This document shows, piece after piece, positions 11,376 to 12,162 of a stretch of 64,000 nucleotides of DNA. Every line of letters begins with the position of its first letter. Within the stretch, counting starts at the first letter, position 1. The notes under the pieces were generated by a model. That model was given only the letters and a program-made list of their open reading frames with translations. It searched no databases and was not told the DNA's origin. The translations under genes and the position numbers were made by a program. The DNA is taken from contig CAMYVX010000001.1 of the NCBI GenBank assembly GCA_947302535.1, forward strand, positions 1 to 64,000, given 5' to 3'. The DNA comes from an uncultured Caryophanales bacterium (GTDB lineage: Bacteria; Bacillota_I; Bacilli_A; RFN20; CAG-826).

Positions 11376-11463
11376 TATTTCTTTATAAAAAATATCACGG
11401 TACAGTGATATAATTATGTTGAGTTTTAGAAAGTATAAACATTTAAATAAGGAGATAATTGTT

Positions 11464-11892
11464 ATGTTTAACAAAGTTAAAAATGTTTACCCTCTAGATG
11501 ATTATAAATTGCTTGTCCAGTTTTGCGTTGGTGTTACAAAGATATATGATGTAAAACCATTATTTAAATGGAAAGATGTTTTCAAAACGTTAAAAGAAAA
11601 CGAATTATTCTATGCTGTTTATGTCGATGTAGGCGGATGTGGAATAGTGTGGAATGATTATGTTGATCTTTCTTGTGATGAACTATGGGAAAATGGAAAA
11701 GAAATAAAAACACCGTTTGATGGTTTGATGTCAATGAATGACGCTACTACGATTTGGGGATTAAATGAATCTACATTAAGAAAGGCCATATCATATGGAA
11801 AACTAAAAAACGGAATTGATGTATGTAAATATGGCAAACAATGGGTTGTTTCTATCGAAGCAATGAATAGGGAATATGGGCAACCACATTAA
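11464..11892 (+). CDS. DUF2442 protein with C-terminal helix-turn-helix
   Basis: MFNKVKNVYPLDDYKLLVQFCVGVTKIYDVKPLF...FYAVYVDVGGCGIVWNDYVDLSCDELWENG then MSMNDATTIWGLNESTLRKAISYGKL; SD aaggag upstream. Confidence 0.8.
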   Translation: MFNKVKNVYPLDDYKLLVQFCVGVTKIYDVKPLFKWKDVFKTLKENELFYAVYVDVGGCGIVWNDYVDLSCDELWENGKEIKTPFDGLMSMNDATTIWGLNESTLRKAISYGKLKNGIDVCKYGKQWVVSIEAMNREYGQPH

Positions 11893-11925: not shown

Positions 11926-11954
11926 TTACAAAAGGATAGGAAGATGAATATAAT
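11926..11954 (+). promoter_or_regulatory. Sigma-70 promoter of candidate ncRNA
   Basis: TTACAA - 17 bp - TATAAT. Confidence 0.65.
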
Positions 11955-11960
11955 ATAATT

Positions 11961-12162
11961 GTCAAAGGTGGAGATGTACGGTCACTACGGTAGCGCTACT
12001 GACTGTGATTCGTCAGCGTACGACCACGCCGCACCCTAGCCATAGGGTGGAATCGGGGATGCAGGTGGAAGGCTAATAGATGACCTCTAACGATTAAGTC
12101 GCTTTCCTTAATGAGGCTGTCCTGCTTGGCAAACAATTGATGACTCAGATGAGTCATTTTTT
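11961..12162 (+). ncRNA. Structured non-coding RNA (~200 nt), family not identified
   Basis: Dedicated promoter; closing helix GTCAAaG/CTTGGC, GTACG/CGTAC, CTGAC/GTCAG, CCCTA/TAGGG, GCAGG/CCTGC, CCTC-ATTAAG/CTTAAT-GAGG; intrinsic terminator; no ORF; GC-richer than surroundings. Confidence 0.7.
12140..12162 (+). terminator. Rho-independent terminator of the candidate ncRNA
   Basis: ATGACTC AGAT GAGTCAT followed by a T run. Confidence 0.8.

Follow-up and report, generated by a model that had tools for sequence, protein, structure and literature searches.

The window analysed here, a stretch of 64,000 nucleotides of DNA from an uncultured Caryophanales bacterium, carries an independent RNA gene that has both a promoter and a terminator of its own, as comparison with related sequences confirms. 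The RNA belongs to a real, previously uncatalogued and pseudoknotted family, many copies of which lie just downstream of the gene for a conserved protein of about 120 amino acids that itself belongs to an unnamed family. In our view this RNA quite likely acts as the antitoxin in a type III-like toxin-antitoxin system whose toxin fold, gene order and RNA are all new.

Structure of the RNA gene

All features of the gene lie on the forward strand. It begins with a sigma-70-type promoter, TTACAA-17-TATAAT (11926-11954), read from the sequence as a -35 hexamer TTACAA at 11926-11931, a 17-nt spacer and a -10 hexamer TATAAT at 11949-11954, and it ends with an intrinsic terminator, ATGACTC-AGAT-GAGTCAT plus a T-run (12140-12162), of which the hairpin occupies 12140-12157 and the T-run extends to 12162. 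An initial annotation had placed both signals correctly, the terminator also being returned by a terminator scan, and its proposal of an ORF-free structured RNA beginning near 11961 agrees with the existence of homologues (best blastn E value 1e-84). Taken alone, the window RNA shows only mild stability relative to shuffled sequences (z=-1.43), and proof that it is an RNA therefore had to come from its relatives. From an alignment of 40 short copies (A2), with a structure derived by hand and the window copy excluded, we built a covariance model, R1. This model recovers the window RNA from the 5' strand to the 3' strand of helix P1 (11960-12131) with E=3.7e-9 and 39 bits. In A2, 93.4% of the cells pair and two-sided changes occur at 21 of 26 pairs, a level reached by none of 500 shuffles and lost when the helix partner is slid by one column. 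Covariation is therefore strong. The covarying helices are P1, P3, P4 and a helix between the loops of P2 and P4, which forms a kissing pseudoknot.

The individual helices were also checked in the window copy plus 22 relatives that share its 5' domain (n=23). P1 (11960-11965 with 12126-12131) is paired in 21-22 of 22 sequences. P2, formed by GTGG at 11968-11971 and CCAC at 12024-12027, is invariant and for this reason provides no evidence from covariation. It is extended by GTACG at 11976-11980 and CGTAC at 12017-12021, the outer three pairs of which form in 23/23 sequences and the inner two in 16-17/23. The pseudoknot joins CAGC at 12014-12017 to GCTG at 12116-12119, is kept in 22-23/23 sequences and covaries strongly in the minimal RNAs. 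The P3 hairpin CACCCTA/TAGGGTG (12032-12049) covaries in the 23-sequence set as it does in A2, and P4 (GCAGG at 12061-12065, CCTGC at 12121-12125) forms throughout (23/23), with several pair types at its outer pair. P5 (GGAAG at 12067-12071, partner at 12102-12106) has only five informative sequences and is present in part of the RNA copies; relatives carry the variants GGAGC/GCTCC and GGAAAC/GTTTCC. The fold drawn by hand in the initial annotation survives in part: P1, GTACG/CGTAC, CCCTA/TAGGG and GCAGG/CCTGC all stand. Its CTGAC/GTCAG helix does not: single pairs of it form in as few as 6 of the 23 sequences, and its 3' strand belongs to the pseudoknot. A further proposed helix, CCTC/GAGG, competes with the pseudoknot and, with five informative sequences, is without clear support.

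Across the family the conserved core is surrounded by variable extension arms. Minimal forms of about 86-99 nt occur beside two enlarged ones, which have either a longer P2 arm or an additional module close to P4; chimeras combining both enlargements also occur, the window copy among them. To count expression signals we used 89 copies whose ends were set by the model alone, the flanks playing no part in their choice. In 78 of the 89, P1 is preceded at a distance of exactly 5 nt by a -10 hexamer with at least five of six matches, the same spacing as in the window. A terminator follows the RNA in 82 of the 89, compared with 21% of shuffled flanks, and three of the seven copies without one run straight into a second RNA. 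A search of Rfam 15, at the gathering cut-off and at E<=10, returned only terminator-like chance matches, none of which reached the gathering cut-off, in keeping with the initial annotation, which saw no core signatures of SRP, RNase P, tmRNA or T-box RNAs.

Distribution of the RNA family

A blastn search of 279 genomes of the order found matches in 32, and R1 found 131 copies in 69 of 273 genomes of the order. Except for one weak match, all of these copies fall within one family of uncultured rumen and gut Bacilli, and no further copies were found by R1 in 245 genomes drawn from the phylum. The exception (L208:~1508-1580, E=1.2e-5) is in a genome of another family of the order, G075, and is possibly a divergent copy. 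A DNA pattern searched over 85,462 species gave 52 matching stretches, counted as genome-contig matches, 50 of them in uncultured gut Bacilli; the other two, in a Chloroflexi genome (L152) and in Acaryochloris (L170), were rejected as chance. Records of relatives carry the titles 'Bacilli', 'Bacillales' or 'Erysipelotrichaceae bacterium', and their origins include the rumen, horse faeces and comparable material. No match to the RNA was found in phage and plasmid collections. Two patterns gave no match in viral contigs, and six matches to a third were discarded as chance, the RNA being absent around them.

The distribution is patchy and multicopy. Some loci carry tandem arrays, and several different RNAs can share one array. 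The toxin and RNA arrays often follow closely on a tRNA-Asn(gtt)-tRNA-Glu(ttc) pair (L055, L064, L129, L242, L245, L246, L270, L276 and others), which is likely an insertion hot spot. Type II toxin-antitoxin genes are found no more than 10 nt from some of the lone RNAs; they encode an MqsA-like antitoxin (L264:~1000-1470) and a YafQ toxin, itself with an HTH neighbour (L269:~1160-1475).

The protein partner

A profile built from the alignment of the ~120-aa protein (A1) matches 49 of 279 genomes of the order, and in 395 genomes of the class and 392 of the phylum it matched members of the same bacterial family only. For 55 of 57 distinct full-length proteins the RNA follows on the same strand, 15-43 nt behind the stop codon where the distance was measured; 51 of these pairs were found automatically and four were read by eye where the parser had missed the 3' end of the RNA. 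Of the two unpaired proteins, one (L095) is near a contig end and the other (L127) is a distant outlier with a different P1-closed sequence behind it. The latter sequence, GTGATAACC...TTATCAC (L127:1917-2020, genome G201), possibly represents a third RNA family. By genome coordinates, 59 of 64 protein matches are paired with an RNA, and three of the remaining five are paired by motif. Distances between proteins correlate with distances between their RNAs (Mantel r=0.63, matched in 0 of 9999 permutations), a figure that includes whatever host phylogeny contributes.

The loss of partners is one-sided. About 50 RNAs stand without the protein, whereas intact proteins that lack the RNA number one or two at most, although some of the seemingly lone RNAs are at contig ends or are weak matches (G075, G127, G014) and the MAG assemblies are incomplete. 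In several cases (G225:C59, G163, G166, G121 and G235:C20) the toxin gene has decayed and the RNA has been retained. Such an asymmetry is as predicted for an antitoxin and not for a cofactor.

The protein has no family match in Pfam or NCBIfam and no convincing match in PADLOC or PHROGs. An AF2 model (pLDDT 86) has a helix at residues 59-71 and strands at 73-76, 83-89, 97-106 and 111-120. Foldseek gave no match at E<=0.001, the best being weak (1.9e-3). Its top ranks are held by phage domains of the MuF C-terminal type (probability 0.98-0.99), and the only meaningful PDB match is BrnT (3u97, probability 0.75). H49 and D61 are conserved in 51/51 sequences and H55 and T/S116 in 50/51, with H55 placed shortly before the helix and T/S116 within the final strand. 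In the published description of the BECR layout (PMC5512222), four strands come after a helix and the active-site residues are H and S/T; the model and the conserved residues reproduce this arrangement. From the predicted fold together with the H/H/D/T residues, the protein is likely a BECR-type RNase similar to MuF-C and BrnT.

The window copy lacks such a partner, and neither a toxin nor a convincing toxin remnant was found in the window. The description of the RNA as a stand-alone gene, made in the initial annotation, holds for this copy; at other loci the RNA frequently follows a protein gene, with which it forms a pair. The ORF just upstream (11416-11892, forward strand), with Pfam DUF2442 and HTH_59 domains, is outside the conserved pair and was rejected as the partner, having no relative in any other fetched locus. 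It matches PHROG 2655, labelled excisionase (3e-34), and no integrase was identified beside it. Two complete protein-RNA pairs are found elsewhere in the same genome, a 1.17-Mb draft, on contigs C33 and C2. In both (L060:1-210 and L141:2241-2402) the RNA terminator is interrupted near the contig end in an insertion-like manner. A 93% identical copy of the window RNA occurs in another genome (G232:C18), within a four-RNA array beside a toxin. The absence of a toxin from the window, the lack of relatives of the DUF2442-HTH ORF, the pairs elsewhere in the genome and the near-copy in G232 suggest that the window copy is most likely an orphan antitoxin RNA, an extra copy without its toxin.

A candidate toxin-antitoxin system

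In the mechanism that we propose, complete loci would encode a toxin of about 120 amino acids, a predicted BECR-type endoribonuclease, just upstream of the RNA, and the RNA, directly following the toxin gene, would be made from a promoter of its own. It would fold into the P1-closed, pseudoknotted structure, bind the toxin and block its RNase activity. When production of the RNA drops, for instance because a phage infects the cell or the element is lost, the toxin, being the more stable of the two, would be set free. We infer the RNase activity from the structure model and the conserved residues, and toxicity, direct binding and neutralisation would follow from the same scheme. The orphan RNA of the window may guard against the two toxins encoded elsewhere in its genome, or against incoming toxins.

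Other explanations of the linkage were weighed against this antitoxin reading. The protein and RNA might form a defence RNP nuclease, the RNA being an activating or specificity cofactor whose variable arms set the target. Such a role would suit the variable extension arms on a conserved core and the different RNAs found within one array, but protein-less RNAs are common and keep their structure, RNA-less proteins are almost absent, and the RNA diverges in step with the toxin rather than varying freely as a guide would; we regard a cofactor as unlikely. Still less probable is regulation of the upstream gene's expression by the RNA, in a type I-like manner or by attenuation, without binding of the protein. 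The position of the RNA directly behind the gene and on the same strand would fit, yet the RNA has promoter and terminator signals of its own, is not antisense to the gene, has a conserved structure and persists where the gene is gone.

The multicopy state of the RNA and its many lone copies, that in the window included, might also be expected of a small RNA with a general regulatory or housekeeping role, carried along with the protein gene only because both sit in the same islands. Its presence in only 69 of 273 genomes does not suit a housekeeping RNA, and linkage within 15-43 nt in 55 of 57 proteins, together with joint divergence, is hard to obtain by hitch-hiking, which makes this a very improbable account. 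A last alternative is that there is no RNA gene at all, and that the stretch is a decayed element, another DNA-level structure or, as raised in the initial annotation, a transposon end; an IS3-type transposase and an IS200-like remnant do lie just upstream in the window. Against it, homologues occur in many unrelated contexts, compensatory changes preserve single-strand pairing, and promoter spacing and terminators are conserved, so that we give it almost no weight.

The antitoxin reading invites comparison with the type III systems ToxIN, CptIN, TenpIN and AbiQ. As in these, a small RNase-like protein is genetically paired with a pseudoknotted non-coding RNA, here a conserved pair with a covarying loop-loop helix, tandem RNA units occur, and the distribution is patchy. 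In known type III loci the toxin is preceded by RNA repeats of about 34-50 nt; one promoter serves both, and a terminator separates them (PMC5086642, PMC12373285). The present gene order is reversed, the toxin coming first and the RNA having its own promoter, and the RNA is usually a single unit of 86-175 nt rather than a set of short tandem repeats. The protein also differs, being BECR/MuF-C-like according to Foldseek, with no Pfam or NCBIfam match to indicate a ToxN-like protein. Two type III features are thus shared and three are not, and we therefore call the system type III-like and not type III. In a second known case, AbiF/Abi_2, the protein is neutralised in cis and in trans by a structured RCd22-type RNA with its own terminator (PMC12373285). 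The present RNA is likewise structured and terminated on its own, and would likewise neutralise its protein, but neither the Abi_2 protein (Pfam) nor the abiF RNA motif (Rfam) was found here. BrnT, a type II toxin, resembles the ~120-aa protein in being an RNase toxin of related fold, with no sequence similarity detected between them. BrnT is neutralised by a protein, BrnA, and is not known to be inhibited by an RNA. The PBECR/MuF_C proteins (PMC5512222, PF18819) share with the present family the predicted fold of a helix and four strands and the conserved H and T/S. They have been described as phage-borne or solo predicted RNases (PMC5512222), and we found no description of a partner RNA for BECR, PBECR or MuF_C proteins in the openly licensed literature.

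MuF_C proteins were also encountered among the loci collected here (PF18819, 29.2 bits against a cut-off of 27.6). Located about 122 nt upstream of some of the present RNAs, they were considered as a second partner and dropped because an RNA of their own stands in between. This RNA is different and short, resembles an H-type pseudoknot (GAACCGA..GGCTCCAATTGCCA..CTTGGGTTC) and directly follows the ORF at its stop codon. It occurs in L278-L282, L284-L286, L289 and L294, twice in tandem in L285, and in longer tandem forms in L287, L288, L295 and L296. It has no match in Rfam, and it covaries in a small sample of nine hand-picked stretches (0/500 shuffles). Several of these loci follow tRNA-Asn and tRNA-Glu genes directly, and in them the present RNA comes next. 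Sequence profiles do not connect the two protein families (hhalign probability 0.8%), which are linked by the fold search only.

Pairing of BECR proteins with RNAs may thus be a general theme. Tentatively, and as a possibility that we rate below the antitoxin reading itself, the BECR-fold RNase toxins of these gut Bacilli could make up a whole class of toxin-antitoxin systems built from protein and RNA: no fewer than two or three unrelated structured RNA families would stand behind different BECR proteins, and mixed orphan arrays behind tRNA genes would serve as banks of immunity to foreign toxins. Few toxin folds are known to be inhibited by an RNA antitoxin; they are the ToxN-like proteins and, recently, Abi_2. 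If the present interpretation is correct, a further unrelated RNase fold would be inhibited by a large, well-folded RNA, RNA inhibition of RNases would have evolved more than once, and likely functions would be assigned at once to two unnamed families, one of proteins and one of RNAs. The protein-RNA pair offers a clean, testable system, and if orphan antitoxin RNAs do form such arrays behind tRNA genes, immunity conferred by RNA against the toxins of mobile elements could be tested directly.
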